DNA from: Candidatus Zixiibacteriota bacterium
GTDB lineage: Bacteria; Zixibacteria; MSB-5A5; CAIYYT01
Assembly (NCBI GenBank): GCA_020853795.1
Contig: JADYYF010000165.1
Coordinates: 1-36,435 of the forward strand
Direction of reading: 5' to 3'
Length of the DNA stretch: 36,435 bases
Made by a program: the position numbers and the translations under genes
Shown here: piece after piece, positions 1,663 to 35,909 of the stretch
Layout: every line of letters starts with the position of its first letter
Position numbering within the stretch: the stretch's first letter is position 1
Notes under the pieces: generated by a model
Database searches by the model: none
What the model saw: the letters and a program-made list of their open reading frames with translations, nothing else
Told to the model about the DNA's origin: nothing

Positions 1663-1679
1663 CTCTCGCTCCTTCCGCT

Positions 1680-2678: not shown

Positions 2679-2716
2679 TGGCAGGGTGTTCTCACGGATT
2701 GGAGAAGTCGTGTGAC

Positions 2717-5224
2717 TTAGAACTGCCCGGCAGCAACCGCCCGCGCCGTTTGATCGAACGGGTTGCTCACCAGATATTCGCGGGATATCCGCATCGCATC
2801 CTCCCGCCGCCCGTTCTGCGCGTAGAGCGACAGCAAGGAGCGATACGTGATTTGCGACGCCGGATTGATGCGGTAGGCAACTTCCGCCGCACCCACAGCC
2901 TCGGATGAGCGTTTCAGCGTTTGCAGCGTCAGGGCTTTGTACTGGTAGTAGAAGATGTTGTCGGGATTTGATGCGATCAATTGATCGCAATACTTCAGAT
3001 ACTCGGTCAGCGCCGAGTCGGTCTGTTCCGGCGTGAACTTGAGTTGATCCGCCAGCACGGCTCGGAATTGCCAAAACTCCGGATACTGCTTGACGAACAG
3101 CTCCGCTAACTCGCGCGCCTTTTCCGGCTGTTGATTCCGGGTCAGGTAGTCGATGAATTCCACCCCGACCTGCATCGAGCCGATCGCCAGCGTCGTCGCC
3201 ACTTCGTCGCGATAGACTCTGAGGTCATCCAATCCGCGCACGCGATAATTGCGGAACAGATCCAGCGACCGGTCAACATCCCAGGCGCCGCCCATCTGAT
3301 CCTTGCCGACCTGGATCAAGTAACCCAGACGCAGGCTGTGCTCCGCCAGCGGATATCGCACCTGCCGGGGAAGGTCGCCGGAGAAGACAATCGGATACTT
3401 CCATTGGTTGGCGCCGACGATATTTTCAACCATTTGATCGGCCACCGTCACCAACTGGTTGCTGGCTTGGTCGCGAAACGCCATCAGCAGATGCTCCCAG
3501 CCACCGCGCAGATGATCGACATAAGGACGCAACGGCCGCGTCGTCGAGATGCTCTCCCAGCGCATCTGCTCGTCGGTAAACGAAATCGGCACCCCCATCT
3601 CGTGCTTGAGCTGAAGCTGGTACCAGTCGGTCTGAATCAGCGACAAGTTCGCGATTTTGACGTCGCGCCGATAGTGGTAGACTTCCTGCAGACACCACAG
3701 CGGGAAAGTATCGTTATCGCCGTTGGTGAACAAAATGGCGTCCGGCGGGCACGAATCCAGATAATTGGCGGCGTAATCGTACGGCATGTAATTGTCGGAT
3801 CGGTCGTTGCCGTGATAATTGGCCGAGATTGCCACAACCGGAAAGACCAATGTCGCCAAACCGGCGAGCAGAGTTATCACCTGGCTGTTCGCCGCCCGCA
3901 GCCGCTCCAGCAGCCAATTGAGTGCAACATACAGCCCCAGGCCGATACACAGTGCAAACGTGATGAACCCCGGTGTGAAGAAATAATCGCGATCGCGCAC
4001 TTCCAACCGGTCCAGCCCCGTGAGCTGATCCATTTGTGACCCGTCGGAGAAGTTCATATACAGCACCAGCCCGATCGTTCCCGCCAGCAACACCAGCAGG
4101 AAAAAGAAGCCCGGTTTCCACTTCCACTTGATCAGCGCCACCATCCCGATGATCGCCAAAGCGAGCGGAATCACGAACAGCATCCCGCCAAAACCGAACT
4201 GATCGACCAGAAATCCGCCAAAACCGATTCGCGGATAGTCACCGAATTGATGCGACCACGATGCCCGCCGATTGAACATCTTCGTGAGCATCGACTCCTG
4301 TCCGTACTGCTTGCGCTGCAGGTAGCCGTAGAAGCGCTCCCAGTCCGAGGGTGCGTTCTGGTTGATCCGCGGCTTCTCGGCCGCCCGAATCGGGATGTAG
4401 GCGTGTGCCGAGAACCCCACCATCGCCGCCACCGTCAACCCGAGGCACAGCCCCCAGCCGAGACTGCGCTCTTTGAGGAACGCCACCAATGAAACCACCG
4501 CCCACAGCGGTACCGCAATCAGGAACCACCCCACATCAATTGCCACCAGGAAGAGCACAACCCCGCTGACCCAAAATCGCCAGTCAGTGCGCAGTCTTTC
4601 GTCGACCAGAATCACGAACAGGAAGACTGCCGGCATTGCCAGGAATGTCGTCATATGTACGGCAACCGATAAAACGCTCAGGTAGGCAATCGCAACCAGA
4701 TACAACAGCCCGCGGCTGCTGTTACGCTGATCATACCACTGCAGCGCCAGCCAGATCAACGCGAAGTAAATCAGCATCGCGAGCGCGTAGACTTCAGCCT
4801 CCACGGAATTCGACCAGTTGGTCCGCGAGAAGGCGAACAACAGAGCCCCCGTCGCCGAGCAAAGATAGGCCAGCAATTGCTTGGGCCGGCTCTCATCGAC
4901 TCCCGGCAGGAAACGCAGCAGCCGCACCGCCACAAGATAGCCGAAGGTCGCCGCCGCCGCGCTGCTGAAGACTGAAACCAGGTTCACACGGTATGCGATG
5001 TCGAAAACCAGCGGAAACAAGGAGAAGACACGACCGATCAGGAGGAACAGCGGATTTCCTGGCGGATGCGCAATTCCCAGAATGTAGGAACAGGCTACGT
5101 ACTCGCCGCAATCCCAGAACGACAGCGTTCGCTGCACCGTCATCCAGAAGACCACTAAGGATGTAACGAAGACAAAGGTGGCCGTCAGCAGGTGGGCCCA
5201 ATTACGTGGTTTATTTTGAAACAG
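2717..5224 (-). CDS. DUF2723 (GT-C-like) membrane protein with C-terminal TPRs
   Basis: A roughly 835-aa integral membrane protein. Near the N-terminus is SFWDCGEYVACSYILGI followed by HPPGNPLF, the DUF2723 hallmark resembling the acidic first-loop motif of GT-C enzymes such as protein O-mannosyltransferases. Many membrane segments follow. A soluble part contains NGDNDTFPLWCLQEV, also a family signature, and the last 150 or so residues form TPR-like helices. Likely role: lipid-linked sugar transfer to proteins or glycans at the inner membrane; the substrate is unknown. Start: the first ATG/GTG/TTG is GTG 5155, but homology-like sequence (NWAHLLTATFVFVTSL) extends 5'. The only well-placed start is CTG 5224, seven bases after AAGGAG, with an in-frame stop a little further upstream. 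I annotate CTG 5224; GTG 5155 is the alternative. Confidence 0.85.
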   Translation of the reverse strand: MFQNKPRNWAHLLTATFVFVTSLVVFWMTVQRTLSFWDCGEYVACSYILGIAHPPGNPLFLLIGRVFSLFPLVFDIAYRVNLVSVFSSAAAATFGYLVAVRLLRFLPGVDESRPKQLLAYLCSATGALLFAFSRTNWSNSVEAEVYALAMLIYFALIWLALQWYDQRNSSRGLLYLVAIAYLSVLSVAVHMTTFLAMPAVFLFVILVDERLRTDWRFWVSGVVLFLVAIDVGWFLIAVPLWAVVSLVAFLKERSLGWGLCLGLTVAAMVGFSAHAYIPIRAAEKPRINQNAPSDWERFYGYLQRKQYGQESMLTKMFNRRASWSHQFGDYPRIGFGGFLVDQFGFGGMLFVIPLALAIIGMVALIKWKWKPGFFFLLVLLAGTIGLVLYMNFSDGSQMDQLTGLDRLEVRDRDYFFTPGFITFALCIGLGLYVALNWLLERLRAANSQVITLLAGLATLVFPVVAISANYHGNDRSDNYMPYDYAANYLDSCPPDAILFTNGDNDTFPLWCLQEVYHYRRDVKIANLSLIQTDWYQLQLKHEMGVPISFTDEQMRWESISTTRPLRPYVDHLRGGWEHLLMAFRDQASNQLVTVADQMVENIVGANQWKYPIVFSGDLPRQVRYPLAEHSLRLGYLIQVGKDQMGGAWDVDRSLDLFRNYRVRGLDDLRVYRDEVATTLAIGSMQVGVEFIDYLTRNQQPEKARELAELFVKQYPEFWQFRAVLADQLKFTPEQTDSALTEYLKYCDQLIASNPDNIFYYQYKALTLQTLKRSSEAVGAAEVAYRINPASQITYRSLLSLYAQNGRREDAMRISREYLVSNPFDQTARAVAAGQF

Positions 5225-21863: not shown

Positions 21864-21978
21864 ATGCCGGCAATGGCAATTTGGAGGCTGAACGGCTGAA
21901 ACCTTGCGATTCTCCCATCCGTATTTTAGAGTGGTAATAATGGTCCTAACGAGCAGTGTAAGGAACTCAGCCGATTCT

Positions 21979-23793
21979 ATGAAAGTGCGCAATTTCTCCC
22001 TCATCACGGCCCTGACGGTGCTCGTTGCGGTCGCCTCGGCAACCGCCGAAACCGCCACCATCGTCAATGTCAAGAATTTCCGCCCCAACGAGGTCTACTG
22101 CAAAGCGATTGAAGTCACTCGCCCGACGACCATCCATATCGATGTCGTCGGCGCCGGCGAGGCAGACCAGGATTGCATGTGGGCCTACGCCTGGATCATC
22201 CCTTCCGGCAAGCTCGATCCAATCTGGGTCATGGAGTGGAACCGCACCGAGGAATTCGGCAGCGAAGAGTGGCTGCGCCGCTATGACAGTAACCTTGAAC
22301 TCGAAACCGGACGCTACGAGATCTACTACTACGCCGGACTGGTCAGAAGCTTCGGCGGAATCGTCATTGACTTCGATTGGGACAAACTCAAAGAGAGCAT
22401 CAAGAAGCTGAAAAAGAACGAGGCCCAGCTTGAGAAGGAACTGCAGGCGCTCGCGATGGAACTCGGTAAAGACGCGTCGTCCGGAGTCGTGGTGTCGATG
22501 GACAAGGCGTCCGAAAAGCTGCTCGATGACTACTATCTGGAAATTGAGGGTGATAATTCGGCGATCCGGATCAGCACCTGTGACTACTCCTCCAAACTCT
22601 CGGTTGCGGAAATCTTGCACCCCGATCACAACCAGTATACTTCTGTCGGTTTCTCTGTCGACAAACCGGTTGAAGTCGAAGTCCAGGCTATCGGCGAGGT
22701 CCTCGGCTGGGATGATGCGTTCGCCGATTACGGCTGGATCATCAACGCCGATTCTCGCCGCCGCATCTGGTCGATGGACAACACGCGCCGCGAATGGGCC
22801 GGCGGCGCTGAGAAGAACCAGATGTCGCGCCGCCTGCTGCAACTTGAGCTCGGTGACTACCTGCTCTACTATGTCACGGATGATTCGCATTCATACGATG
22901 ACTGGAACGCCGCCCCACCCTACAATCCCGAGGCCTACGGCGTGCGCGTCAGCGTCGTTAATGAGCGCGACAAGGCTTCAGTGCGACCCTATAAAGAATC
23001 GCAGTCGCAGATGCCGTTGCTCTCCATCGTCCGCGTCGGCGACGACTTTCAGGAAGTCAAACCCTTCCGCGTCACCCGCGACTGCCAAGTGCGTGTCTAC
23101 GCCATCGGCGAATGCAGCCCCGGCAGCCGTGAGTTTGCCGACTACGCCTGGATCGAGCGCGAAGGCGAAGACGAGCCGATCTGGCTGATGTTGGAGGACA
23201 ATACCGAGCCGGCCGGCGGTGCCAAGAAGAATCGTCTGGCCGATGAAGTGATTACGCTGCCGAAGGGTGACTACTTGCTCGGCTACGTCACCGATGATTC
23301 TCATTCATACGGAGACTGGAATGCCACTCCGCCCTATGATCAGAAGAACTACGGCGTCTCGCTGTTTGCGGCCGCCAACGGCGGCAGCCAACCGCCGATC
23401 GTCGAATTGACTGAAGAAACCGAGTCGGGCGACGTCCTCGCCCGCATTATCCGCGTCGGCGACGATGCCGATGAAACCGCCTCATTTGCCCTTCAGCAGC
23501 CGACCCGGGTCCACATCTACGCTCTCGGCGAAGGCTCCGGCAACGAGATGTACGACTATGGCTGGATCGAGAACTCCGACAACGACGACATCGTTTGGGA
23601 AATGACCTATCGCCGCACGAAACACGCCGGTGGCGCTGAGAAGAACCGCATGGTCGATACCGAGGTTTTGCTCGATAAGGGCCGCTATCGCGTTCACTAC
23701 GTCAGCGACGGATCGCACGCTTTCGGCAGCTGGAATGCCGACAAACCTCGCAATCCGCAACGGTGGGGAATCACCGTCTCGCGCGCTCAATAG
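21979..23793 (+). CDS. exported four-repeat beta-rich protein of unknown function
   Basis: A 604-aa protein with a signal peptide (residues 1-23, ending ASATAE). About four divergent copies of a roughly 110-aa unit follow, near residues 35-135, 213-326, 349-463 and 487-601. Copies 2-4 share AxGE, DYGWI or DYAWI, an I/V-W-x-M strand, AGGAEKN (or AGGAKKN), L-x-K/L-G-D/R-Y, and Y-V-T/S-D-D/G-S-H...WNA..P. Copy 1 is degenerate and is followed by a charged coiled coil (about 135-165). The units look like beta-sandwiches on the cell surface or in the periplasm. I know no named function. ATG 21979 is chosen because the signal peptide starts there. Confidence 0.75.
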   Translation: MKVRNFSLITALTVLVAVASATAETATIVNVKNFRPNEVYCKAIEVTRPTTIHIDVVGAGEADQDCMWAYAWIIPSGKLDPIWVMEWNRTEEFGSEEWLRRYDSNLELETGRYEIYYYAGLVRSFGGIVIDFDWDKLKESIKKLKKNEAQLEKELQALAMELGKDASSGVVVSMDKASEKLLDDYYLEIEGDNSAIRISTCDYSSKLSVAEILHPDHNQYTSVGFSVDKPVEVEVQAIGEVLGWDDAFADYGWIINADSRRRIWSMDNTRREWAGGAEKNQMSRRLLQLELGDYLLYYVTDDSHSYDDWNAAPPYNPEAYGVRVSVVNERDKASVRPYKESQSQMPLLSIVRVGDDFQEVKPFRVTRDCQVRVYAIGECSPGSREFADYAWIEREGEDEPIWLMLEDNTEPAGGAKKNRLADEVITLPKGDYLLGYVTDDSHSYGDWNATPPYDQKNYGVSLFAAANGGSQPPIVELTEETESGDVLARIIRVGDDADETASFALQQPTRVHIYALGEGSGNEMYDYGWIENSDNDDIVWEMTYRRTKHAGGAEKNRMVDTEVLLDKGRYRVHYVSDGSHAFGSWNADKPRNPQRWGITVSRAQ

Positions 23794-25490: not shown

Positions 25491-26078
25491 ATGACTGACT
25501 CAATCCAACTTCTCGCTCCAACCGAGGCCGAATTGCAGGCCGCCTTCTGGAAGCAGGTCGAGTCGTTCCCCGATGGCCACAAAATCAAGAAGTGTCTCCA
25601 GTGCGGCACGTGCACCGGCGCCTGCCCGGTATCGGAGTTTATGGACCTGACGCCGCGCCAGATGGTGGCCATGTTCCGCGCCGGCCGCATCGAGGAACTG
25701 CTGCGTTCCAAGTCGATCTGGATATGCGCTTCCTGCTACTCCTGCACGGTGCGGTGCCCCGCCGGCATCAAGGTGACCGACACGATGTATGCGCTGAAGC
25801 GAATCGCCATGCAACGCAAGATCTACCCCGCCAATTTCCCGGTGCAAAGTCTGTCTTCGGCCTTCTTGCGCAATGTCTACAAGTACGGTCGCAACTACGA
25901 ACTGGGTTTGGCCGTGAAGTACTTTATGCGGTCTAATTTTGTGAAATTATTCACGAGTGCCGGTTATGGCATGTCACTGATGAAGAACGGCCGGATGGGG
26001 CTGCTGCCGAAGCGGATCAACCGCGTCAAGCAGATTCAGGCCATTATTAAGAAAGCTAACGAATTCGGAGAATACTGA
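25491..26078 (+). CDS. hdrC: heterodisulfide reductase subunit C
   Basis: A 195-aa iron-sulfur protein with two [4Fe-4S] sites: C35/C38/C41/C45 in CLQCGTCTGACP and C79/C82/C85/C89 in CASCYSCTVRCP. It has the N-terminal ferredoxin-like and C-terminal helical layout of HdrC. In HdrABC complexes it passes electrons from HdrA to the HdrB active site in the cytoplasm. It is the first gene of an eleven-gene operon; AAGGA precedes ATG 25491. Its stop overlaps the hdrB start (TGATG), indicating coupled translation. The length is close to typical HdrC proteins. Confidence 0.93.
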   Translation: MTDSIQLLAPTEAELQAAFWKQVESFPDGHKIKKCLQCGTCTGACPVSEFMDLTPRQMVAMFRAGRIEELLRSKSIWICASCYSCTVRCPAGIKVTDTMYALKRIAMQRKIYPANFPVQSLSSAFLRNVYKYGRNYELGLAVKYFMRSNFVKLFTSAGYGMSLMKNGRMGLLPKRINRVKQIQAIIKKANEFGEY

Positions 26079-26956
26079 TGCCCGAGTACGCTTACTACCC
26101 CGGTTGCAGTCTCGAACACACCGCCAGTCCGTACGATCTGTCGATGCGCGCTGTCTTTAAGGCCCTCGATATCGGCTTGCGGGAAATCGAAGACTGGAAT
26201 TGCTGCGGCGCCACGATGTACATGTCGTCGAAAAAAATCGTCGGCTACTCGATCAGTGCCCGCAATCTCGCGCTCGCACAGGAAATGAAGCTCGATGTCT
26301 GTGCTCCCTGTTCAAGCTGCTATACGATTCTGGACAAGACCAACCGCCAGATCAACTGGAATCCGCAACAGCGCCAGCAAATCAACACGGCCCTGGCCGA
26401 AGCCGGACTTTCCTATGACGGCAGCGTCAAAGTTCGCCATCCCCTCGACATTCTCATCAATGATCTGGGATTGGAGAAACTCAAGGAGAAGGTGACCAAT
26501 CCGTTGAACGGCCTGAAGGTTGCCCCCTACTACGGCTGCCAGATCGTCCGACCGCACGGTTACTTCGACGACACCGACGATCCGCAGACGATGGATCAGT
26601 TGATTCGCGCCCTCGGCGGCGAAGCCGTGCATTACCCGCTCAAAGTGCGCTGCTGCGGCGGCATGCTGATGACCACCGACGATACCATTGCCTTGAAGCT
26701 GTGTCACGAGATTCTGCAGGCGGCGGCCGACAACAAGGCCGACGTCGTCGCCACCGCGTGCCCGCTCTGCCATATCAATCTCGAGGGCTATCAAAAGCAA
26801 ATCAACGCCCGCTTCGGTTCACACCTCGATCTGCCGATCGTGTACTTCACTCATCTGGTCGGCGTCGCGCTCGGCCTGTCGGCCCAGGAATTGGGGCTGG
26901 ACAAGCTGCTGATTGCGCCTCGCCGGCTGATGACAAGGGAGGTGGCCCACACATGA
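26078..26956 (+). CDS. hdrB: heterodisulfide reductase subunit B
   Basis: A 292-aa protein with two complete CCG domains: C10, C42-C43, C78, C81 and C154, C192-C193, C228, C231. These bind the two non-cubane [4Fe-4S] clusters that reduce the CoM-CoB disulfide in methanogens. Because both sets are intact, the protein should be catalytically competent. The host is unlikely to use CoM-CoB disulfide, so the real acceptor is unknown; other HdrB-type proteins act on disulfides or hand electrons to other partners. Start overlaps hdrC and the stop overlaps the next ATG (ATGA). Confidence 0.93.
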   Translation: MPEYAYYPGCSLEHTASPYDLSMRAVFKALDIGLREIEDWNCCGATMYMSSKKIVGYSISARNLALAQEMKLDVCAPCSSCYTILDKTNRQINWNPQQRQQINTALAEAGLSYDGSVKVRHPLDILINDLGLEKLKEKVTNPLNGLKVAPYYGCQIVRPHGYFDDTDDPQTMDQLIRALGGEAVHYPLKVRCCGGMLMTTDDTIALKLCHEILQAAADNKADVVATACPLCHINLEGYQKQINARFGSHLDLPIVYFTHLVGVALGLSAQELGLDKLLIAPRRLMTREVAHT

Positions 26957-27936
26957 GCAACTCAGACAACGGCGCGGAAATCCGCGTTGGGGTATATGTC
27001 TGCCATTGCGGCACCAACATCGCTAAGACCGTTGACGTCGCCAAGGTCGCCGAAATGGCAGCCACGCTCCCGAACGTCGTGGTCGCTCGCCATTACAAAT
27101 TCATGTGCTCCGATCCTGGTCAGGATCTGATTCAGCGCGATATCAAGGAGCTGAAACTCAATCGCGTCGTCGTGGCCGCCTGCAGTCCCTTGATGCACGA
27201 ACCGACCTTCCGGAATGCCTGCGCCGCGGCCGGTCTCAATCGGTACCTGTTCGAAATGGCGAACATCCGCGAACAGGTCAGCTGGGTCACGCTCGACTCC
27301 AAAGGCGCGACCACCAAGGCGATGGCGCTCGTTCGCGCTGCCGTCGCCCGCGTGCGCTTGCACGAACCACTGGAGATGCGGCGCGTACCGATCAAGAAGC
27401 GCGTGCTCGTAGTCGGCGCCGGAATTGCCGGTATCGAGTCCGCCCTGCAGATCGCCGACGCCGGATTTGAAGTGGTTCTGGTTGAGAAGGAACCGTCGAT
27501 CGGCGGACACATGGCGCAGTTCGACAAGACGTTTCCGACGCTCGACTGCGCCGCCTGCATTCTGACGCCGAAGATGGTCTCGGTCGGCAAACATCCGAAT
27601 ATTCGGCTGATGACCTGGACCGAAGTCGAGGAAGTCTCCGGCTACCTCGGGAATTTCACCGTCAAGCTCAAACGCAAGCCGCGTTACGTCGACGTGAAGA
27701 AGTGCAATAGCTGCGGCGCTTGCTATGAGGCGTGCCCGAGCGTGCCGACTCCGGCCTATCGGCGCATGACTCTCGGCGGCCGTGTCTACCGCGAGGGCCG
27801 CCTGCTCGACGTGCAAGACAAGTGGCGCATGGGACCCAAGCACGACCTGACGGTCTTGACCGCCGCCCAGCCGATGCCGGAGAACCTGCCGACGCCGGAG
27901 TCGCAGCCGGTCCAAGTGGAGGTGCAACAGCAATGA
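26953..27936 (+). CDS. hdrA: HdrA, N-terminal half only (split HdrA)
   Basis: A 327-aa protein equal to roughly the first half of HdrA. The N-terminal cluster domain (about 10-140) has cysteines in YVCHCG, MCSDPG and AACSP. The FAD Rossmann motif GAGIAG (155-160) is followed by VEKEPSIGGHMAQFDKTFPT and CAACILTPKMV. One [4Fe-4S] motif (C251, C254, C257, C261) completes the first half of the inserted ferredoxin domain. Normal HdrA continues with a second cluster, the rest of the FAD domain and a C-terminal ferredoxin. Here the protein instead ends in an unrelated, Pro/Gln-rich tail of about 65 residues. The missing half is encoded three genes downstream (30478-32235). The ATGA overlaps on both sides show an intact operon gene, not a broken one. 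Confidence 0.9.
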   Translation: MSNSDNGAEIRVGVYVCHCGTNIAKTVDVAKVAEMAATLPNVVVARHYKFMCSDPGQDLIQRDIKELKLNRVVVAACSPLMHEPTFRNACAAAGLNRYLFEMANIREQVSWVTLDSKGATTKAMALVRAAVARVRLHEPLEMRRVPIKKRVLVVGAGIAGIESALQIADAGFEVVLVEKEPSIGGHMAQFDKTFPTLDCAACILTPKMVSVGKHPNIRLMTWTEVEEVSGYLGNFTVKLKRKPRYVDVKKCNSCGACYEACPSVPTPAYRRMTLGGRVYREGRLLDVQDKWRMGPKHDLTVLTAAQPMPENLPTPESQPVQVEVQQQ

Positions 27937-28457
27937 CAACGACTGCAGTCAAGCCTGAAGAATATGATGTTCAGGAAGCCATCGACAAGATCGTCGCCGA
28001 GTATGGTGCGAAACCATCCGCGCTGATCATGATCTTGCAGGATATCCAGAAACACTACCGCTACTTGCCGGAATCGGCCATGCACGCCGTTTCCAAGTCG
28101 ATGAAGCTGCCGATCGCGCAGATTTACGGCGTCGCAACGTTCTATCGGTCCTTCAGCTTGAAGCCGAAGGGCAAGAACCACGTCTGCGTCTGCACCGGTA
28201 CCGCCTGTCATGTGCGGCAGGCCACCGTCATTGTCGACAAGCTCCGGCGCGACCTCAAGATCGAGCCCGGTGAGACTACGCCCGACGGCGAGATCAGCCT
28301 GGAAACCGTGAACTGCCTCGGGGCCTGCGCCCTTGGACCGCTCGTCACGGCCAACGACATCTACTACGGCAACATGACGGTCTCCAAGACGGAGCAAATG
28401 CTGAATGACATCCGCGCCGGCAAATTGAGTGCCAAGAAAGACGAGGTGGCCGGATGA
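27933..28457 (+). CDS. NuoE/HydC-like [2Fe-2S] subunit
   Basis: A 174-aa thioredoxin-fold [2Fe-2S] protein of the 24-kDa complex I family, with ligands C87 and C92 (CTGTAC) and C128 and C132 (CLGAC). The N-terminal helices (ALIMILQDIQKHYRYLP) and GVATFYRSFS are family-typical. In NADH dehydrogenases and in trimeric HydABC hydrogenases it partners the FMN subunit, which is encoded next. It starts inside the end of the hdrA half gene (ATGA) and its own stop overlaps the next start, so NuoE, NuoF and the Hdr parts are made together. Best named HydC or NuoE-like. Confidence 0.93.
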   Translation: MTTTAVKPEEYDVQEAIDKIVAEYGAKPSALIMILQDIQKHYRYLPESAMHAVSKSMKLPIAQIYGVATFYRSFSLKPKGKNHVCVCTGTACHVRQATVIVDKLRRDLKIEPGETTPDGEISLETVNCLGACALGPLVTANDIYYGNMTVSKTEQMLNDIRAGKLSAKKDEVAG

Positions 28458-30469
28458 AAGACCCTGTCCTGAAGACAACGGCCGACTTACAGCAGCTGCG
28501 CGAAAAGCTGCAGCACAACCGCAACGTCAACAAGACTGTCATCACTGTCTGTGCCGGCACCGGCTGCCTGGCGTGCGGCTGCGAAAGCGTTGCCAAGACG
28601 TTTCGCGAGTTGCTCGCGTCTGACCACATGGAAAATGAAGTCGAGCTGAAGACAACCGGCTGCCACGGCTTCTGTGAACGCGGACCACTGGTCGTCATTC
28701 AACCACAAGGCGTCTTTTACCAGCGCGTTCGTCCCGCCGACGCCAAATTGATCTGGGAACAGACCATCAAGGGCGGGAAGCTAGTAAACAAGCTGCTGTA
28801 CAAAGACCCGCAGTCGCAACAGGTGATCAAGCTCGAGAAAGATATTCCCTTCTACCGCAAGCAGATGCGCCTGATTTTCGGCAGGAACGGCTACATGGAT
28901 CCGACCTCGATCTCCGACTACATCCTGCTCGGTGGCTACCAGGCCATGGTTAAGGCGCTGACGACAATGAAACCGGAACAGGTGATCGACATCGTCAAGA
29001 AATCCGGCCTGCGCGGACGCGGCGGCGGTGGCTTCCCGACCGGAAAGAAATGGGAGTCATGCCGCAGGGCGAAGGGCGAACCGAAGTACATCATCTGCAA
29101 CGCCGACGAGGGTGATCCCGGCGCCTTCATGAACCGCTCACTGCTGGAGGGCAACCCGCATTCGGTGATCGAAGGCATGGTTATCGGCGCCTTCGCTATC
29201 GGCAGCACCGACGGTTTCGTTTACGTCCGCAACGAGTACCCGCTGGCGGTCAAGAACCTGACGATCGCGATCAACCAGGCACGGGAATACGGCCTCCTCG
29301 GCCAGAACATTCTCGGCACCGGCTTCAACTTCGACATCGAGATTTCTCGCGGCGGCGGCGCATTCGTCTGCGGTGAGTCGACCGCGCTGATGGCCTCGCT
29401 CGAAGGCAAGGTCGGCGAGCCGCGCGCCAAATACATCCACACGGTCGAAGCCGGGTTCAATGATAAACCGTCCAATCTCAACAACGTTGAGACCTGGGCC
29501 AATATCCCGCTGATCGTCGAGCGCGGCCCCGAGTGGTTCGCTTCGATCGGCACCGAAGGCTCCAAAGGCACCAAGGTGTTCGCCTTGACCGGCAAAGTCA
29601 ACAACACCGGCTTGGTCGAAGTGCCAATGGGCATCACGCTGCGCGAGATTCTCTATGATATCGGCGGCGGCGTCCCGAACAACAAACGATTCAAAGCCGT
29701 CCAGACCGGCGGTCCTTCCGGCGGCACGCTGATCGTGGAGACGTCCGATGCGGCGATTCACGACAGCTTGGTCGCCCATGGTGACATCAACGAAGACGAC
29801 GAGCCGCACAGCCTGCTCGACCTGCCGGTCGATTTCGATGAATTGACGCGCGCCGGCTCGATGATGGGATCCGGCGGCATGATCGTCATGGACGAAGACT
29901 CCTGCATGGTGGATGTCGCCCGCTACTTCCTCAATTTCCTGCAGGAAGAATCGTGCGGCAAGTGTCTGCCCTGTCGCGAAGGCATCGTTGTGATGCTCAA
30001 CATCCTGAACAAGATCTGCCACGGCGAAGGCACGATGGAGGATATCACCTACCTCGAGCAATTATCACAGGTGATTATTGACACCAGTCTCTGCCAGCTG
30101 GGCGGATCGGCGCCGAACCCGGTGCTGTCGACGATCCGCTACTTCCGGCAGGAGTACATCGCCCACGTCCGCGACAAACGTTGTCCGGCGGGCGTCTGCA
30201 AGGATCTGGTGGCGCACGCGATCGACAACACCTGTACCGGCTGTCACGCCTGCGTCAAGCCGTGTCCGACGGCGGCAATCATCGGTGAACCGAAACGTCT
30301 GCACGTGATCATCCAGGATAAGTGCATCCAGTGCGGCGCGTGCTACCAGATCTGCCGCTATAACTCGATCAAACGGGTCAAGCGCGGTGAAGGCGACCGT
30401 ATCCAACAACGCGCGCGCGAAATGTGGCAGCCCCGGATAACCGACAAACAGCCGGCGCCGGTGGCGTAG
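28454..30469 (+). CDS. NuoF/HydB-like NAD(H)-FMN subunit with extra FeS domains
   Basis: A 671-aa NADH-binding subunit. The N-terminal thioredoxin-like [2Fe-2S] domain has C33, C38, C70, C74. The NuoF core has NADH/FMN glycine loops (LRGRGGGGFPTGKKW at 186-200 and CNADEGDPGAF at 215-225). The N3-type cluster is C501/C504/C507 (CGKCLPCREG) and C547. A C-terminal 2x[4Fe-4S] ferredoxin domain has C594/C597/C600/C604 and C624/C627/C630/C634. This layout is that of HydB of electron-bifurcating hydrogenases, longer than plain NuoF. It would oxidise or reduce NAD(P)(H) at FMN and connect to ferredoxin-type centres. ATG 28454 overlaps the NuoE stop; the stop is eight bases before the fusion gene. Confidence 0.93.
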   Translation: MKDPVLKTTADLQQLREKLQHNRNVNKTVITVCAGTGCLACGCESVAKTFRELLASDHMENEVELKTTGCHGFCERGPLVVIQPQGVFYQRVRPADAKLIWEQTIKGGKLVNKLLYKDPQSQQVIKLEKDIPFYRKQMRLIFGRNGYMDPTSISDYILLGGYQAMVKALTTMKPEQVIDIVKKSGLRGRGGGGFPTGKKWESCRRAKGEPKYIICNADEGDPGAFMNRSLLEGNPHSVIEGMVIGAFAIGSTDGFVYVRNEYPLAVKNLTIAINQAREYGLLGQNILGTGFNFDIEISRGGGAFVCGESTALMASLEGKVGEPRAKYIHTVEAGFNDKPSNLNNVETWANIPLIVERGPEWFASIGTEGSKGTKVFALTGKVNNTGLVEVPMGITLREILYDIGGGVPNNKRFKAVQTGGPSGGTLIVETSDAAIHDSLVAHGDINEDDEPHSLLDLPVDFDELTRAGSMMGSGGMIVMDEDSCMVDVARYFLNFLQEESCGKCLPCREGIVVMLNILNKICHGEGTMEDITYLEQLSQVIIDTSLCQLGGSAPNPVLSTIRYFRQEYIAHVRDKRCPAGVCKDLVAHAIDNTCTGCHACVKPCPTAAIIGEPKRLHVIIQDKCIQCGACYQICRYNSIKRVKRGEGDRIQQRAREMWQPRITDKQPAPVA

Positions 30470-30477
30470 GAGGAAGT

Positions 30478-32235
30478 ATGGCAACTGTCAATATCAAGAT
30501 CGACGGTCAACCGATCACGGTGGAAGAAGGCTCATACGTACTCGAGGCCGCCCGAGCGCTCGGCATCGATATCCCGACGCTCTGCTTCTACCCGCACATG
30601 AGTCCCTACGCCGCCTGCCGGATTTGCTGCGTTGAGGCCCGCAACGGCCGTGGCTGGAGCAAAATCGTGACGGCCTGCAATTACCCGACCTGGGAGGGTC
30701 TCGAGATCTACACCGACACCGCCCGCGTGGTGAACGCCCGCCGTACGAACCTCGAGATGCTGATGGCCAATTGCGCGCCGTCCCCGGTGCTCGAACGCCT
30801 GGCCGACAAGTTCGGCATCACCGAACCCCGCTTCGGCACCGGCGAGTACACCTGCATTCTCTGCGGTCTCTGTGTGCGGTTCTGCGACGAGGTCGTCGGC
30901 GCGCACGCGCTGACCTTTGTCAATCGCGGCAGCAATCGCGACCTCTCAACGCCGTTCGAACGCGAGTCGGAGGCCTGCATCCTCTGCGGTGCTTGCGCCA
31001 AGATCTGTCCGACCGGCTATATCCGCATGGAGGACATCGAAGAGCGCGCCATTAATCATCGCGAAATGAGCCTCGGCCCGAACGCGGCAATTACGCTGCC
31101 CTTCCGCCAGGCTGTGCCCAATGTCCCCGTCATCGTCCGCGAAAACTGTATTCATTATAAAACCGGTGGCTGTATGATCTGCTCCAAGGTGTGTCCGAAA
31201 GATTGTATCGATTACGGCGATCGTCCGGAAGTTGTGGAGCTGGAAGTGGGAGCGATTGTGCTCGCCACCGGTTTTGATGATTTCGACCCGACTCCGATGA
31301 AGCAGTATGGCTACGGCAAGTACCCGAATGTCATCACGTCGATCGAATTCGAGCGGATGAACAACGCTGCCGGCCCCACGGGCGGCAAGATTTATCTCGA
31401 GAACGGCGACGAGCCAAAACGGATCGCCATCCTCCACTGCGTCGGCAGCCGCGACGAGCATCAGCACAAGTATTGCAGCCGTGTCTGCTGTATGTATGCG
31501 CTGAAATTCGCCCACCTGATCAAGGAGAAAACCAAGGCCGACGTCTACCAGTTCTATATCGACATGCGCGCCTTCGGCAAGGGTTACGAGGAATTCTACC
31601 AGCGTATCCTCGACGAGGGTGGCAATGTCATTCGCGGCAAGGGCGCCGAGGTCGTCCCGTCTTCGCACAGGCAGGCCGCCGAAGGCCACCTGATCGTCCG
31701 CTGCGAGGACACCATGATCGGCAAGTTCCGCGAGATCCCGGTTGACATGGTGGTTTTGTGCACCGCGTTGGAAGCCCGCCATGACGCCAAAGACGTGGCG
31801 CGCAAGTTCAACATCTCGGTCGGCGCTGACGGCTGGTTCATCGAGTCGCATCCCAAGTTGGGACCGGTCTCGACCGCTACCGAGGGCGTATTCCTCGCCG
31901 GTGTCTGCCAGGGCGCCAAGGATATTCCCGACTCCGTGGCGCAGGGCTCGGCTGCCGCGGCTCAAGTAATGAAATTGTTGTGCCAGGGCGAGGTGCTGAT
32001 GGATGCCACCTATGCCGAGGTTAACGAGGAACTCTGCTCCGGCTGCCGCATCTGCAATGACCTTTGCCCATACCGGGCCATCGACTTTGATGCCGTCAAG
32101 AAGCTGAGCCATGTAAATTCGGCGCTCTGCAAGGCTTGCGGGACCTGCGTGGCCGCCTGTCCGTCCGGGGCGATCAAGGGGCGGCACTTCACCGATGAAC
32201 AGATCTATGCGCAGATCGAGGGGATGTTGTCATGA
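30478..32235 (+). CDS. fusion: NuoG/HydA-like FeS N-terminus + C-terminal half of HdrA
   Basis: A 585-aa fusion. Residues 1-75 are a [2Fe-2S] domain (C36, C47, C50, C67) as in NuoG/HydA. Residues 120-180 hold two [4Fe-4S] motifs (C126/129/132/136 and C167/170/173/177). The usual His-Cys cluster between them is absent; only C99 remains in MANCAPSPVLERL. From about residue 203 (AITLPFRQAVPNVPVI) the sequence is the second half of HdrA: a cluster (C224, C232, C235, C239), VGAIVLATGFDDFDP, KYCSRVCCMYALKFAHLIKE and MRAFGKGYEEFYQR, then GVFLAGVCQGAKDIPDSVAQG of the FAD domain, and a C-terminal 2x[4Fe-4S] ferredoxin (C520 to C561). It must pair with the N-terminal half encoded at 26953-27936. The start follows a strong AGGAGG. 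Confidence 0.92.
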   Translation: MATVNIKIDGQPITVEEGSYVLEAARALGIDIPTLCFYPHMSPYAACRICCVEARNGRGWSKIVTACNYPTWEGLEIYTDTARVVNARRTNLEMLMANCAPSPVLERLADKFGITEPRFGTGEYTCILCGLCVRFCDEVVGAHALTFVNRGSNRDLSTPFERESEACILCGACAKICPTGYIRMEDIEERAINHREMSLGPNAAITLPFRQAVPNVPVIVRENCIHYKTGGCMICSKVCPKDCIDYGDRPEVVELEVGAIVLATGFDDFDPTPMKQYGYGKYPNVITSIEFERMNNAAGPTGGKIYLENGDEPKRIAILHCVGSRDEHQHKYCSRVCCMYALKFAHLIKEKTKADVYQFYIDMRAFGKGYEEFYQRILDEGGNVIRGKGAEVVPSSHRQAAEGHLIVRCEDTMIGKFREIPVDMVVLCTALEARHDAKDVARKFNISVGADGWFIESHPKLGPVSTATEGVFLAGVCQGAKDIPDSVAQGSAAAAQVMKLLCQGEVLMDATYAEVNEELCSGCRICNDLCPYRAIDFDAVKKLSHVNSALCKACGTCVAACPSGAIKGRHFTDEQIYAQIEGMLS

Positions 32236-32681
32236 CATTTGAACCAAGAATCGTCGGATTCCTCTGCAATTGGTGCAGCTATACCGGTGCCGATTTGGCC
32301 GGAACGGCGCGCATGCACTACCCGCCGAACGTAATGGCCATCCGCGTCATGTGTTCCGGCCGCGTCGATCCGTCCTTCATTCTCGATGCGTTTCGGCGCG
32401 GCGCCGATGGTGTGCTGGTTTGCGGCTGCCATCCCGGCGACTGCCACTACATCGACGGCAACTACAAGTGCATGCGCCGACTGCCGATGACACAGCGGTT
32501 GATCGAAGCGATGGGCATCGACCGCCGGCGTCTGCGTCTGGAATGGGTCTCAGCCTCGGAAGGCGGCCGATTCCAGCAGGTCATTTCCGAATTCACCGAG
32601 CAAGTCCGCGCGCTGGGTCCGTTTGAGCTGCGCGACTACAAGTTCGATCCCAATGCCGAGGAGGTGCATCAGCATGCCTAA
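32232..32681 (+). CDS. mvhD: MvhD/FlpD-type [2Fe-2S] subunit
   Basis: A 149-aa protein that in MvhADG-HdrABC carries electrons from hydrogenase (or formate dehydrogenase) to the FAD of HdrA. Cysteines that fit the cluster site are in CNWC (12, 15), MCSGR (41) and CGCHPGDC (64, 66, 71). GVLVCGCHPGDCHYIDGN and RMHYPPNVMAIRVMCSGRVD are family signatures. It sits exactly between the HdrA half and the hydrogenase subunits, with an ATGA overlap upstream and an eight-base overlap with the small-subunit gene downstream. That position supports its role as the physical bridge. Confidence 0.93.
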   Translation: MTFEPRIVGFLCNWCSYTGADLAGTARMHYPPNVMAIRVMCSGRVDPSFILDAFRRGADGVLVCGCHPGDCHYIDGNYKCMRRLPMTQRLIEAMGIDRRRLRLEWVSASEGGRFQQVISEFTEQVRALGPFELRDYKFDPNAEEVHQHA

Positions 32682-33645
32682 ACCGAAACTCGCGATCTAC
32701 TGGGCGTCGTCCTGCGGCGGTTGCGATATCGCGATCCTCGACATCGAGGAGAAGATCCTCGCGGTCACGGAGTTCTTTGACCTCGTCTTCTGGCCCTGTG
32801 CGATGGACTTCAAGTACGACGACGTCCGCGCCATGGACGATAAGTCGATCACCGTCACGCTCTTCAACGGCGCCATTCGCACCAGCGAAAACTACGAGCT
32901 GGCGCAGCTCCTGCGGCAGAAGTCGGTGGTGCTGGTGGCGTTCGGCAGTTGCGCCGGTGAAGGCTGTATCCCGGCACTCGCCAACTTCTTTGACAAAGAA
33001 TCAATCCTCGATTACGTCTATCACAAGTCACCGTCGCTGGCCAATGGCGGCAGCGTTTTACCGCAGCCGGAGGTTGAAGTTCCCGAAGGGAAGATCACCA
33101 TCCCGAAGTTCTGGAATACGGTGCGTACGCTCGACCAAGTGGTCGAAGTCGACTACTACATCCCCGGCTGCCCACCGCAATCAGACCAGATCGCATCCGC
33201 GGTGCTGACCGTTATTGATATCCTGAAAACCGGCAAGCCGCTTCCGCCCAAAGGCACCGTCCTCGGCGCGACCGAGAAGTCGTGCTGCGATGAATGCCCG
33301 CGCGAACGCAACGTCAAGAAGATCAAGTCCTTCATCCGCCCGTTCCAGAAAGTTACTGATCCGAACCTGTGCCTGATGGAACAAGGGATTGTTTGCCTCG
33401 GTCCGGCGACCCGCTCCGGTTGTGGCGCCAAATGCGTCAAGGCCGGCGTTCCCTGTCGCGGCTGCTACGGCCTGCCGTCCAACGTCCGCGATCAAGGCGC
33501 CAAGATGGTGTCGGCACTGGCGAGCGTTATCGACTCCACCGACCCGGAGGAAATCGAGCAGATCATCAGCACGATTCCCGATCCGCTCGGGACCTTTTAT
33601 CGCTTCAGTCTCGCCGGCTCATTGCTGCGGAGGGCCCAGGTATGA
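32674..33645 (+). CDS. mvhG: [NiFe]-hydrogenase small subunit, MvhG-like
   Basis: A 323-aa cytoplasmic small subunit (no Tat signal). The proximal cluster begins with YWASSCGGCDIAILD (C14, C17) and uses GSCAGEGC and DYYIPGCPPQ. Further cysteines (CCDECPRE and, near the C-terminus, SGCGAKCVKAGVPCRGCYG) supply the additional [4Fe-4S] clusters of group 3 enzymes. It passes electrons from the NiFe site to MvhD. ATG 32674 is eight bases after GAGGAGG, which lies inside mvhD. The stop overlaps the large-subunit start (ATGA). The sequence resembles heterodisulfide-reductase-linked group 3c hydrogenases. Confidence 0.92.
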   Translation: MPKPKLAIYWASSCGGCDIAILDIEEKILAVTEFFDLVFWPCAMDFKYDDVRAMDDKSITVTLFNGAIRTSENYELAQLLRQKSVVLVAFGSCAGEGCIPALANFFDKESILDYVYHKSPSLANGGSVLPQPEVEVPEGKITIPKFWNTVRTLDQVVEVDYYIPGCPPQSDQIASAVLTVIDILKTGKPLPPKGTVLGATEKSCCDECPRERNVKKIKSFIRPFQKVTDPNLCLMEQGIVCLGPATRSGCGAKCVKAGVPCRGCYGLPSNVRDQGAKMVSALASVIDSTDPEEIEQIISTIPDPLGTFYRFSLAGSLLRRAQV

Positions 33646-35120
33646 AGAGCATAGTTATTGACCCGATCACCCGGCTGGAAGGCCACGGCAAGATTCACCT
33701 CTTCGTCAACGACGATGGCGGACTGGCCAACTGCTACTTCCAGATTCCGGAGCTGCGTGGCTTTGAGAAATTCTGCCAGGGACGCCCGGTGGAAGAATTA
33801 GCCCGCATTACGACCCGCATCTGCGGCGTCTGTCCCGATGCCCATCACATGGCCGCTGCCAAAGCCGCCGACGCGGTCTATGGCGTCACCATTCCGCCGG
33901 CGGCGCGTAAACTGCGCGAGCTGATGTACAATGCCTTTTATGCCGGCGACCACACCACCCACTTCTATGCGCTCGGCGGCCCCGATTTTGTCTGCGGTCC
34001 CGATGCCCCCAAGGCGGAACGCAATATCCTCGGCGTGATTGCCAAAGTCGGCATCGACGCCGGCAAGAAGGTGATCGCCCAACGCGCCCGCGGCCAGCGG
34101 GTCATCGAAATCATCGGTGGCAAGAAGGTGCATCCGGTAACGTCATTGCCCGGCGGTCTCAGCAAGGGCATCACTAAAGAAGAACAGCAGGAGATCATCA
34201 AGATTGGGCAGGAGATGGTGGAGTTCGCCAAATTTACGGTTCAGGTGCTCAATGATGTCGTGCTGGCGAACAAGGCCTATGTTGACCTGATCCTGTCCGA
34301 TACTTACACGCACCAGACCTACAACATGGGGCTGGTCGATTCGAACGGCCACGTGACCTTTTACGACGGCGAGGTCCGTGTTACTGCGCCTGATGGCAGT
34401 AAGCACGCGCAGTACGAGCCGAAGAACTACCTTGACTATGTAGCCGAACACGTCGAGCCCTATTCGTACCTGAAGTACCCGTTCCTGAAGAAGGTCGGTT
34501 GGAAGGGCTTTGTCGACGGCATGGATTCCGGCGTCTACAAGGCATCGCCGCTGTCGCGCCTCAATGTCTCCGACGGAATGGCCACGCCACTGGCGCAAGC
34601 CGAATACGAACGCTATTACGAGACCCTCACCGGCGACCGCTCCGGCAAGAAGCCGGTACATTCAACGCTTGCGACTCACTGGGCGCGCGTTGTCGAGCTG
34701 GTCTTTGCCTGTGAGGCCACGCTGCAGCAGGCACAGGACGAGGAAATCCTCTCGCCCAACGTTCTGAACGTTCCGACCGGGATTGTCGGCGAAGGCGTCG
34801 GCATCGTCGAGGCGCCGCGCGGCACGCTGACGCATCACTACAAGACTGATCAGAACGGCATCGTCACCGAAGCCAATCTGATCGTCGGCACGACCAACAA
34901 CAACGCGCCGATCACGATGTCGATCAAGCGTGCTGCCGAGGGTCTGATCAAGAAGGGCTCCAAGATTACGGACGGCGTTCTCAATCGTATCGAGATGGCC
35001 TTCCGCGCCTACGACCCCTGCTTTGGCTGCGCGACGCATTCGCTGCCGGGCGAAATGCCGCTCGAAGTCATCGTGCATGACGCGACCACCGGCGAAATCG
35101 TCGAGGTCGCGAGGAGATAA
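33642..35120 (+). CDS. mvhA: [NiFe]-hydrogenase large subunit, MvhA-like (group 3c-type)
   Basis: A 492-aa catalytic subunit that splits or makes H2. The NiFe ligands are C61 and C64 in RICGVCPDAHHMAA (L1) and C460 and C463 in DPCFGCATH (L2). The 26 residues after His466 (beginning SLPGEMPLEV) are the C-terminal extension normally cut off after nickel insertion; a matching protease gene is next. DPITRLEGHGKIHL at the N-terminus and HFYALGGPDF are typical of MvhA-type group 3 hydrogenases, and subunit context (MvhD, Hdr) supports class 3c. The ATG overlaps the small-subunit stop. No hyp genes are in the window. Confidence 0.95.
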   Translation: MKSIVIDPITRLEGHGKIHLFVNDDGGLANCYFQIPELRGFEKFCQGRPVEELARITTRICGVCPDAHHMAAAKAADAVYGVTIPPAARKLRELMYNAFYAGDHTTHFYALGGPDFVCGPDAPKAERNILGVIAKVGIDAGKKVIAQRARGQRVIEIIGGKKVHPVTSLPGGLSKGITKEEQQEIIKIGQEMVEFAKFTVQVLNDVVLANKAYVDLILSDTYTHQTYNMGLVDSNGHVTFYDGEVRVTAPDGSKHAQYEPKNYLDYVAEHVEPYSYLKYPFLKKVGWKGFVDGMDSGVYKASPLSRLNVSDGMATPLAQAEYERYYETLTGDRSGKKPVHSTLATHWARVVELVFACEATLQQAQDEEILSPNVLNVPTGIVGEGVGIVEAPRGTLTHHYKTDQNGIVTEANLIVGTTNNNAPITMSIKRAAEGLIKKGSKITDGVLNRIEMAFRAYDPCFGCATHSLPGEMPLEVIVHDATTGEIVEVARR

Positions 35121-35121
35121 T

Positions 35122-35604
35122 TTGAAACCGATCCTGGTGCTGTGCCTCGGGAACGAAGTGCTCAGCGATGATGCCTTCGGACCGGTCATCGCGCGACTAT
35201 TGGACCACTCGGCGTATCAACACGATCGCGTCGAAGTGATGTTTGCCCCGGTCGCGGGATTTCACCTGCTCGACTTGCTGGAACAACGCGAGAAGGTACT
35301 CGTCGTCGACAGTATCCAGACCGGCAAGGTTCGGCCCGGAACCCTGCACTTCTTCCCGATGGGTCAATTGGCACCGTCCAAGGGACTCACCACCAGCCAC
35401 CAGATCAATCTTCCGACGGCCCTGGAACTGGGCCGAAAGATGGGTTACCAGATGCCCGATCACATCGACGTCCTTGCTGTCGAAGTCGCCGACAATACCA
35501 CGCTGAGCGAGGAGTTGACCGGAACCGTGGCGGCAGCCATCGATCCGGCTCTCAAGAGCATCGAGCGCTGGATGGCAGCTCATTCAACGGAGACCGCAAT
35601 ATGA
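35122..35604 (+). CDS. hydrogenase maturation endopeptidase (HycI/HupD/FrcD-type)
   Basis: A 160-aa protease that removes the C-terminal extension of the large subunit once nickel is bound. Motifs include LCLGNEVLSDDAFGP near the N-terminus, with acidic residues at the usual nickel-binding position, VVDSIQTG (D63) and SHQINLP (H93). It starts at TTG 35122, five bases after GAGGAG and one base after the mvhA stop, with no in-frame ATG nearby. Its end overlaps the small zinc-finger gene (ATGA). Adjacency to mvhA indicates it is the dedicated processing enzyme. Confidence 0.92.
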   Translation: MKPILVLCLGNEVLSDDAFGPVIARLLDHSAYQHDRVEVMFAPVAGFHLLDLLEQREKVLVVDSIQTGKVRPGTLHFFPMGQLAPSKGLTTSHQINLPTALELGRKMGYQMPDHIDVLAVEVADNTTLSEELTGTVAAAIDPALKSIERWMAAHSTETAI

Positions 35605-35909
35605 CCACTGAACGACGGCCAAGTCCCTCGCCGGAGGGTCCGCCGAAAACCTGCCCCGAATGCCAGGGCCGCGGTTGGGTCGATAATCGTTGCTTGACTC
35701 CCGACCACGCGCACATGTGCGCCTATTGCCAGGGCAAGGGGACGAGTTTTTCCGGTCAAACCTGCTATGCCTGCAACGGTACCGGCATGATTGAAGTCCG
35801 CCAGGTTGACAAGAATCCCTGTCCGCTCTGTTCCGGCGCCGGCGTCTATCCGGTTCCGGAATCGATGAGCCTCAAGGACTTCGCTTTCAAGCCTCACAAA
35901 ACCGGTTAG
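35601..35909 (+). CDS. small protein with four DnaJ-type CxxCxGxG motifs
   Basis: A 102-aa cysteine-rich protein with CPECQGRG (from C18), CAYCQGKG (C40), CYACNGTG (C55) and CPLCSGAG (C74). This is the zinc-binding pattern of the DnaJ cysteine-rich domain but without a J-domain or substrate-binding domains. It would bind two zinc ions. As the last gene of the operon, overlapping the protease gene, it may be a chaperone or assembly factor for the hydrogenase-Hdr complex, or a redox-sensitive regulator; neither is shown. The tail (SMSLKDFAFKPHKTG) has no recognised feature. Confidence 0.8.
   Translation: MTTERRPSPSPEGPPKTCPECQGRGWVDNRCLTPDHAHMCAYCQGKGTSFSGQTCYACNGTGMIEVRQVDKNPCPLCSGAGVYPVPESMSLKDFAFKPHKTG

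Follow-up and report, generated by a model that had tools for sequence, protein, structure and literature searches.

Results

The stretch of DNA analyzed here (the window, 36,435 nucleotides from an uncultured Zixibacteria-type bacterium) carries a run of 11 mostly overlapping genes on its + strand at 25491-35909 (Table 1). Neighboring genes overlap by 1-8 nt, the exceptions being an 8-nt gap between NuoF and the fusion gene and a spacing of about 1 nt between MvhA and the protease. The gene identities proposed in the first-pass annotation are borne out by matches to Pfam, NCBIfam, and solved structures.

Table 1. Genes of the operon and the insert in HdrA; the starts of HdrA-N, NuoE, the fusion, MvhD, MvhG, MvhA, and the protease are corrected starts
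Feature	Position	Strand	Evidence
HdrC	25491..26078	+	Pfam Fer4_8/Fer4_17; 8 Cys, two [4Fe-4S] motifs
HdrB, two CCG domains	26078..26956	+	Pfam CCG twice
HdrA N-half (HdrA-N)	26953..27936	+	8rvu_a residues 10-271, E 9e-106; NCBIfam HdrA2 positions 1-256
Insert in HdrA	27733..31072	+	junction mapped on HdrA structures and HdrA2 model
NuoE / BfuC, thioredoxin-like, [2Fe-2S]	27933..28457	+	Pfam PF01257, E 1e-50
NuoF / BfuB (HydB)	28454..30469	+	best solved match 7t2r_B, NiFe-HydB of Acetomicrobium, E 7e-232
Fusion of NuoG/BfuA N-part (residues 1-~190) and HdrA C-half (~193-585)	30478..32235	+	9mqx_A (N-part); 8rvu_a/5odc_A (C-half)
MvhD, [2Fe-2S] adapter between hydrogenase and HdrA	32232..32681	+	Pfam FlpD, E 1e-55; HdrA2 positions 647-775
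MvhG, [NiFe] hydrogenase small subunit	32674..33645	+	Pfam PF01058
MvhA, [NiFe] hydrogenase large subunit	33642..35120	+	5odc_F (MvhA) the closest solved large subunit, E 3e-117
Hydrogenase maturation protease	35122..35604	+	TIGR00072 over cut-off; Pfam HycI
DnaJ-type zinc-finger protein, last gene	35601..35909	+	Pfam PF00684

The operon has the traits of a group 3c hydrogenase: MvhD-MvhG-MvhA beside HdrABC, an HdrB with two CCG domains, and a complete HdrA, here spread over two chains. HdrB aligns with the solved HdrB 8rvu_b (E 4.6e-51) and retains the Cys pattern of both non-cubane [4Fe-4S] sites. MvhA has the motifs RICGVCPDAH and DPCFGCATH, so the NiFe ligands are intact, and it also has a C-terminal extension. 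For the HdrC and MvhG products the best NCBIfam matches are HdrC and VhuG, each with a score under the cut-off. The DnaJ-type zinc-finger gene occupies the same position at ten related loci (L042, L043, L045, L047, L048, L085, L094, L129, L130, and L059).

The traits of a Bfu enzyme are present as well, with a BfuBC core and, as a putative electron feed for a third substrate, the NuoG N-part fused to HdrA-C. The [2Fe-2S] Cys pattern is found in the window's NuoE, and NuoF contains the FMN/NADH domain, the N-terminal [2Fe-2S] cluster, B1, the B2 site, and two C-terminal [4Fe-4S] clusters, with no ligand missing. What the first-pass annotation called a NuoG/HydA-like domain is indeed there as the N-part of the fusion, with one [2Fe-2S] and two [4Fe-4S] motifs, but it is without the His-Cys3 cluster; its cluster set is similar to that of type 2 BfuA. 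The Fe-S ligands of the fusion are invariant across 19 sequences.

The HdrA2 gene is otherwise ordinary and is split once, at model positions 256/259, with a complete BfuABC/HydABC-type NADH module filling the gap. The match to the NCBIfam HdrA2 model is collinear: HdrA-N covers positions 1-256, residues 193-583 of the fusion cover 259-640, and MvhD covers 647-775 of 777, so essentially no part of HdrA2 is absent. NuoE, NuoF, and NuoG-N sit between the first two of these segments. HdrA-N contains the N-terminal Fe-S domain, the first half of the FAD domain (GxGxxG), and the first [4Fe-4S] motif of the inserted ferredoxin domain. The insert begins at the last Cys (C261) of this motif and ends at LGPNAAI, where HdrA homology restarts. 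Within the inserted ferredoxin domain, the split site is the loop that joins one [4Fe-4S] motif to the other. This domain has been reported to be an electron exit, of low potential in methanogens (PMC12350162, PMC9012536). Because HdrA is split exactly in the exit loop, the NADH module would be wired to one particular port. This is a sharper point than was made in the first-pass annotation, which did not state it.

In the window and its relatives HdrA is not a single polypeptide and consists of HdrA-N and the NuoG-HdrA-C fusion. We rejected a second, intact HdrA as a substitute for the split one, since neither such a protein nor a second HdrA-N was found in the bacterium's own genome, which is 99.9% complete. 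The FAD fold can therefore be completed only by the fusion protein, which is the carrier of the NuoG domain. When the fusion is modeled alone with AlphaFold, the pTM is 0.38 and the HdrA half is poorly folded, which fits a need for HdrA-N without proving it.

The split-HdrA architecture is present in 12 of the 133 genomes of the phylum, one of the 12 being a single contig. Ordinary 3c operons of the phylum have the order HdrC-HdrB-HdrA-MvhD-G-A, which the window shares apart from the insert. The architecture extends beyond the phylum to KSB1, Calditrichota, Electryoneota, and Chloroflexota. The genome search for the same gene order and fusion protein that had been suggested as a check finds about 20 further loci that have the NuoG-HdrA-C fusion, and mvhD follows immediately downstream wherever the contig extends. 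The draft genome that holds the window is in 215 contigs, and a sequencing or assembly artefact could in principle have merged two operons, but the same architecture recurs across many independent assemblies and at a locus (L129) in a 3.5-Mb single-contig genome (G135). We therefore rejected misassembly, as well as chance, and regard an artefact as having a negligible probability.

Some relatives carry further fusions: HdrA-N is joined to NuoE in L094, and the NuoG-HdrA protein is joined to MvhD in L091. Three loci (L047, L049, and L085) retain the NuoG-HdrA fusion while NuoEF is absent at the locus, and no dedicated NuoEF copy was recognized elsewhere for them. These genomes also have independent Bfu modules, in which NuoEF is accompanied by a short BfuA and 2-oxoacid oxidoreductase genes, or NuoF by a formate-dehydrogenase-like protein; G060 has another BfuB, which comes with its own short BfuA.

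At one locus, L092, the module and its surroundings differ in affinity. NuoE, NuoF, and NuoG-N are 66, 72, and 82% identical to those of the main clade, whereas HdrCB, the HdrA halves, and MvhDGA are closer to an ordinary one-piece 3c operon (66-76% identity) than to the main clade (46-65%). The HdrA-C and NuoF trees conflict in keeping with this. From these sequences, we conclude that the cassette has been transferred between operons, in this lineage into an otherwise ordinary HdrA-Mvh operon.

The window has no GltD domain in HdrA, its insert being NuoE-NuoF-NuoG(N). In L059, which lies within the main HdrA clade, a GltD-type NAD(P)H domain replaces NuoEF at the window's insertion point. A second relative, L095, also has the GltD form, but there and in Desulfobacterales proteins HdrA homology restarts about 25 residues later than in the window. 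An identical GltD insertion point in all of them was thus rejected, and for L095 and the Desulfobacterales only the same inter-motif segment can be claimed.

The architecture, the split of HdrA, the conserved ligands, and the movement of the cassette can be read directly in the sequences, and on this basis the operon products probably form one complex. A single complex had been judged probable in the first-pass annotation, with the gene fusion as the physical tie; the tie holds at every locus, with the NuoG part and HdrA-C always in one chain, and the case is strengthened by the cassette transfer, the extra fusions of relatives, and the GltD domain that L059 has at this site. Two enzymes might instead share one operon, with the HdrABC-MvhADG hydrogenase and a NuoEF enzyme that touches the fusion only transiently, as might be suspected from the Bfu modules that stand alone in these genomes and from the loci where NuoEF is missing. 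We consider this improbable, given that the module interrupts hdrA itself, that the NuoG part is covalently bound to HdrA-C, that L094 has HdrA-N and NuoE in one protein, and that the cassette moves as a unit to the same site.

Discussion

We think it likely that the operon encodes one soluble hydrogenase of the HdrABC-MvhADG (group 3c) type, with a BfuABC/HydABC-type NADH-ferredoxin module placed in the inserted-ferredoxin loop of HdrA. In such a complex, mid-potential electrons would pass between the hydrogenase and the HdrA FAD via MvhD. From the inserted-ferredoxin exit of HdrA, electrons would move through the NuoG-like [4Fe-4S] and [2Fe-2S] clusters to the NuoF FMN, which would exchange them with NAD(H) and, via the NuoF C-terminal clusters, with ferredoxin. 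Four couples would be linked reversibly in this way: H2, NAD(H), ferredoxin, and dithiol/disulfide. The net direction that we infer as likely in fermenting cells is from NADH, reduced ferredoxin, and thiols to H2. Points against this reading are the three loci that have the fusion but no NuoEF and the view that certain HdrABC complexes from outside the methanogens do not bifurcate (PMC5861303).

The specific disulfide partner may be DsrC, which in the bacterium's own genome has both C-terminal Cys residues and a DsrK-like neighbor. However, no NIR_SIR sulfite reductase was found in that genome, and DsrC occurs in 10/12 genomes with the fusion vs 70/121 others (one-sided Fisher p 0.075, not significant), so DsrC was not accepted as the partner and remains a lead only.

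The window has kept the bifurcation residues of HdrA and of NuoF in full. The equivalents of HdrA E356/K409 (methanogen enzyme numbering) are kept as E292 and K343 of the fusion, and NuoF has all the BfuB ligands for clusters B1-B5, including the His and Cys residues of B2. Every NuoF sequence having that region retains the B2 His and C-terminal ferredoxin clusters, features that have been reported missing in non-bifurcating homologues (PMC9304861). Judged by these residues, the NADH module inside HdrA can probably split electrons itself. We tentatively propose, at somewhat less than an even chance, that two bifurcation sites (HdrA FAD and NuoF FMN-FeS) work in series, with the low-potential output of one feeding the other, and that the four couples of H2, disulfide, NAD, and ferredoxin are hard-wired via the split HdrA, whose inserted-ferredoxin loop would be a general port at which NAD(P)H modules of different origin have replaced one another.

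One complex with a single bifurcating flavin is a real possibility, which we hold short of probable; here either HdrA does the bifurcating for the hydrogenase and NuoEF is a plain NAD(H) port, or the hydrogenase is of the Bfu type and HdrA a plain conduit. The GltD alternative in L059 is a simple NAD(P)H domain, and the insert of type III HdrA has been proposed to block ferredoxin and deliver NADH electrons instead (PMC12054007). In addition, the HdrA lysine is absent in L048, and two B5 ligands are lost in L093/L094. Against a single flavin stand the intact residue sets of the window and the constant retention of the B2 His and NuoF C-terminal clusters.

If both flavins bifurcate, as the in-series proposal holds, the complex would be a natural test case for the HdrA FAD and Bfu FMN-FeS mechanisms acting in series, a question raised yet unsettled for the Bam complex. 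Coupling of two bifurcation sites has already been proposed for Bam-Bfu, the class II benzoyl-CoA reductase, which likewise has an HdrA-type bifurcating module and BfuABC (PMC9304861). There, however, the parts are separate subunits with a tungsten benzoyl-CoA reductase, and neither a hydrogenase nor insertion of the module into HdrA is described; here the benzoyl-CoA reductase subunit is absent from the operon and a [NiFe] hydrogenase takes its place. Type III HdrA resembles the window in having an NAD(P)H module between both inserted-ferredoxin motifs and, in Bathyarchaeota, mvhADG in the cluster (PMC12054007). It differs in that a single GltD domain lies within a one-chain HdrA, while the FMN module of the window spans three genes and brings ferredoxin-reducing clusters of its own. 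In view of Bam-Bfu and type III HdrA, the first-pass statement that the joined systems were known only separately was overstated.

The HdrABC-MvhADG of methanogens shares HdrA, HdrB, HdrC, MvhD, MvhG, and MvhA and the key residues with the window, in which HdrA is divided between two chains, with NuoE, NuoF, and the NuoG N-part intervening. CoM-S-S-CoB is an unlikely acceptor here, as methanogenesis would not be expected in this lineage. NiFe-HydABCSL (NiFe-Bfu) of Acetomicrobium mobile, whose HydB is the nearest solved structure to the window's NuoF, also ties a NuoE/NuoF/NuoG-type core to a group 3 [NiFe] hydrogenase. Its hydrogenase connects directly to HydA, whereas in the window HdrA and MvhD intervene and a disulfide branch is added by HdrB/HdrC. 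The window's NuoG part also differs in having no His-Cys3 cluster.

The component parts are known, and it is the way they are joined that is new relative to the openly readable literature searched, in which we found no earlier description of this arrangement; an earlier account elsewhere is possible. Our findings suggest that HdrA has a fixed port, the inserted-ferredoxin loop, that accepts and swaps whole redox modules, and such a port, if real, would explain how anaerobes make new electron-coupling enzymes by moving cassettes. Tariuqbacter has been reported with a plain HdrABC-MvhADG annotation (PMC10439189), and an annotation of this kind can overlook an NADH-linked complex.

An NAD(H) module opens HdrA at a single point

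The first-pass annotation had described an eleven-gene Hdr/Nuo/Mvh operon, and we find it as described, with some gene starts corrected. The 11 consecutive genes encode HdrC, HdrB, the N-terminal half of HdrA (HdrA-N), NuoE, NuoF, a NuoG(N)-HdrA(C) fusion, MvhD, MvhG, MvhA, a maturation protease and a DnaJ-type zinc-finger protein; neighbouring genes overlap by 1-8 nt or are separated by no more than 8 nt. Contig C165, which makes up the window, belongs to a draft genome (G000; 3.56 Mb, 99.9% complete) whose closest named relatives are Zixibacteria MAGs.

Coordinates of the operon and of other features observed
Feature	Location	Strand	Remark
Hdr/Nuo/Mvh operon	window 25491-35909	+	
Secreted-looking protein	window 268-1710	-	several CxxCH haem motifs (multihaem cytochrome)
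Repeat protein	window 21904-23793	+	about three internal repeats, unit type YGWI...GGAEKNR...DDSHSYGDWNA
DsrC and the two genes after it	G000 contig C129, locus L145: 9303-11619		DsrC with both C-terminal cysteines
Extra genes between hdrA halves	locus L045: ~2286-5199		upstream of NuoE; ATPase of histidine-kinase type
Extra genes between hdrA halves	locus L048: ~2244-5175		upstream of NuoE; ATPase of histidine-kinase type

Along the 777 positions of the NCBIfam HdrA2 model, HdrA-N matches 1-256, the fusion matches 259-640 starting at its residue 193, and MvhD matches 647-775. Together these three proteins span HdrA2, and thus an ordinary HdrA2 is interrupted at one point only, the gap being occupied by NuoE, NuoF and the N-terminal part of a NuoG/BfuA protein. 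Alignment with solved HdrA structures (8rvu_a, 5odc_A) maps the opening to the inserted ferredoxin domain, where it separates the two [4Fe-4S] motifs: the first (C251-C261) ends HdrA-N, and the second (C224-C239 of the fusion) lies downstream of the NuoG clusters. The FAD domain of HdrA is also shared out between the two chains. No second HdrA-N was found elsewhere in the window genome, so, judging from the fold, a working HdrA would need HdrA-N and the fusion to assemble, and the fusion would bring the NuoG domain with it.

Cofactor ligands are largely conserved

The best solved match of NuoF is HydB of the bifurcating NiFe-hydrogenase of Acetomicrobium mobile (7t2r_B, E 7e-232). All five positions of the B2 site (C438, C476, H525, C531 and C536; PMC8880783, PMC9304861) are present in the window NuoF; relatives keep the His and three Cys without exception and have Cys, Thr or Ser at the position of C476. 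Ligands of B1, B3 and B4 are complete in all sequences compared, while B5 is incomplete at loci L093 and L094, lacks one position at L084 and falls in a truncated region at L087. Nineteen fusion sequences all keep the [2Fe-2S] ligands (C36, C47, C50, C67) and the two [4Fe-4S] motifs (C126-C136, C167-C177). The NuoG His-Cys3 motif is missing from the aligned fusion sequences, and the resulting cluster set matches that given for type 2 BfuA (PMC9304861). E292 and K343 of the window fusion correspond to HdrA E356 and K409, which the bifurcating FAD is reported to require (PMC12054007). The sole exception among the compared loci is L048, which has Asn at the K343 equivalent and retains the B2 ligands of NuoF, possibly a carrier where only NuoF bifurcates. 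Both CCG motifs of HdrB and both NiFe motifs of MvhA are present.

Distribution and exchange of the cassette

A genome search for the gene order and the fusion protein, proposed in the first-pass annotation, recovered both. A scan of one genome per species turned up about 20 MAGs whose fusion is full-length or nearly so; their labels are Zixibacteria/GN15, KSB1, Calditrichota, Electryoneota (Tariuqbacter), Chloroflexota or unnamed bacteria, and the surrounding gene order is conserved. Among 133 genomes examined of the window's phylum, 12 have the fusion, one of them (G135) assembled as a single contig, and one more (G094) has a GltD form instead of the NuoEF form. The L045 record is titled Candidatus Puniceispirillum (Pseudomonadota) and its Hdr operon groups with those of KSB1/Calditrichota/Electryoneota; the label is probably wrong.

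At locus L092, NuoE, NuoF and NuoG-N are 66%, 72% and 82% identical to those of the main clade of fusion-bearing operons (representative L090), whereas its HdrC, HdrB, HdrA-N, HdrA-C part, MvhD, MvhG and MvhA are only 46-65% identical to that clade and 66-76% identical to L096, an ordinary one-piece group 3c operon of the same family. L092 accordingly falls among ordinary 3c operons in the HdrA-C tree and in the main clade in the NuoF tree (99/98 for each group). This is most simply read as a transfer of the cassette, in the L092 lineage, into a previously ordinary hdrA at the same position.

Locus L059, inside the main HdrA-C clade, has a GltD-type NAD(P)H/FAD domain at the split point instead of NuoEF, with the same two-cluster ferredoxin domain after it, and L093/L094 and L045/L046/L048 lie on NuoF branches other than the main clade. 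One segment of HdrA has therefore received NAD(P)H modules from several sources. Among the sequences compared, the nearest NuoF outside the main clade adjoins 2-oxoacid oxidoreductase genes (L104/L134). NuoE is fused to HdrA-N at L094, and MvhD is fused to the fusion protein at L091; with the cassette transfer and the NuoG-HdrA fusion itself, these joins argue from sequence for one complex. At L047, L049 and L085 the fusion directly follows HdrA-N, and NuoE and NuoF are missing from the locus. Between HdrA-N and NuoE, L045, L046 and L048 carry genes for DRTGG, CBS-ATPase, PHP and ATPase proteins, a set known from HydABC operons.

Several parts have precedents. HdrA and BfuABC modules already occur together in Bam-Bfu, for which two bifurcations in series have been proposed (PMC9304861); the same segment of type III HdrA holds a GltD domain, in one case with mvhADG (PMC12054007); and NiFe-Bfu links BfuABC with a group 3 hydrogenase. 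Beyond these precedents, the conserved split at a defined HdrA port and the cassette exchange remain of interest. We found no description in the open-access literature of HdrA split by NuoEF together with a [NiFe] hydrogenase; Tariuqbacter, a fusion carrier, is annotated merely as HdrABC-MvhAGD (PMC10439189).

Proposed electron path, energetics and disulfide partner

In methanogens, hydrogenase electrons pass through MvhD to the HdrA FAD, from which one electron reaches the heterodisulfide via HdrC and HdrB and the other exits via the inserted ferredoxin domain, where polyferredoxin binds (PMC9012536, PMC12350162). The insert is therefore located on the low-potential exit. By analogy with these homologues, electrons would likely run from the inserted ferredoxin clusters through the NuoG [4Fe-4S] and [2Fe-2S] clusters to NuoF B1, FMN and NAD(H), and the C-terminal clusters of NuoF would serve ferredoxin. 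With standard potentials of -414 (H2), -320 (NAD), -140 (disulfide) and -420 to -500 mV (ferredoxin), oxidation of 3 H2 with disulfide, NAD+ and ferredoxin as acceptors is calculated to release about 54-70 kJ. The reverse would require low H2 together with a thiol couple that is more reducing; direction thus depends on conditions.

DsrC is a candidate disulfide partner, because it keeps both cysteines and has a DsrK-like neighbor, and no NIR_SIR sulfite reductase was detectable in its genome. Across genomes, DsrC and the fusion were not significantly associated (p 0.075). The genes after DsrC encode a small hydrophobic, membrane-like protein and then a DsrK/HdrD-like protein of CCG/Fer4 type.

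Further Bfu-type modules lie elsewhere in G000: contigs C26 and C138 (L140, L138) carry NuoEF beside 2-oxoacid oxidoreductase genes on one and NuoF with a short BfuA on the other, and on C113 (L139) the gene after NuoF encodes a NuoG/formate-dehydrogenase-like protein of 1255 aa. A second, partial [NiFe] hydrogenase cluster at a contig end (C97, L146), with a large-subunit start, a small subunit and NAD-binding, cNMP-binding and Fer4_22 proteins, looks like a group 3b enzyme.
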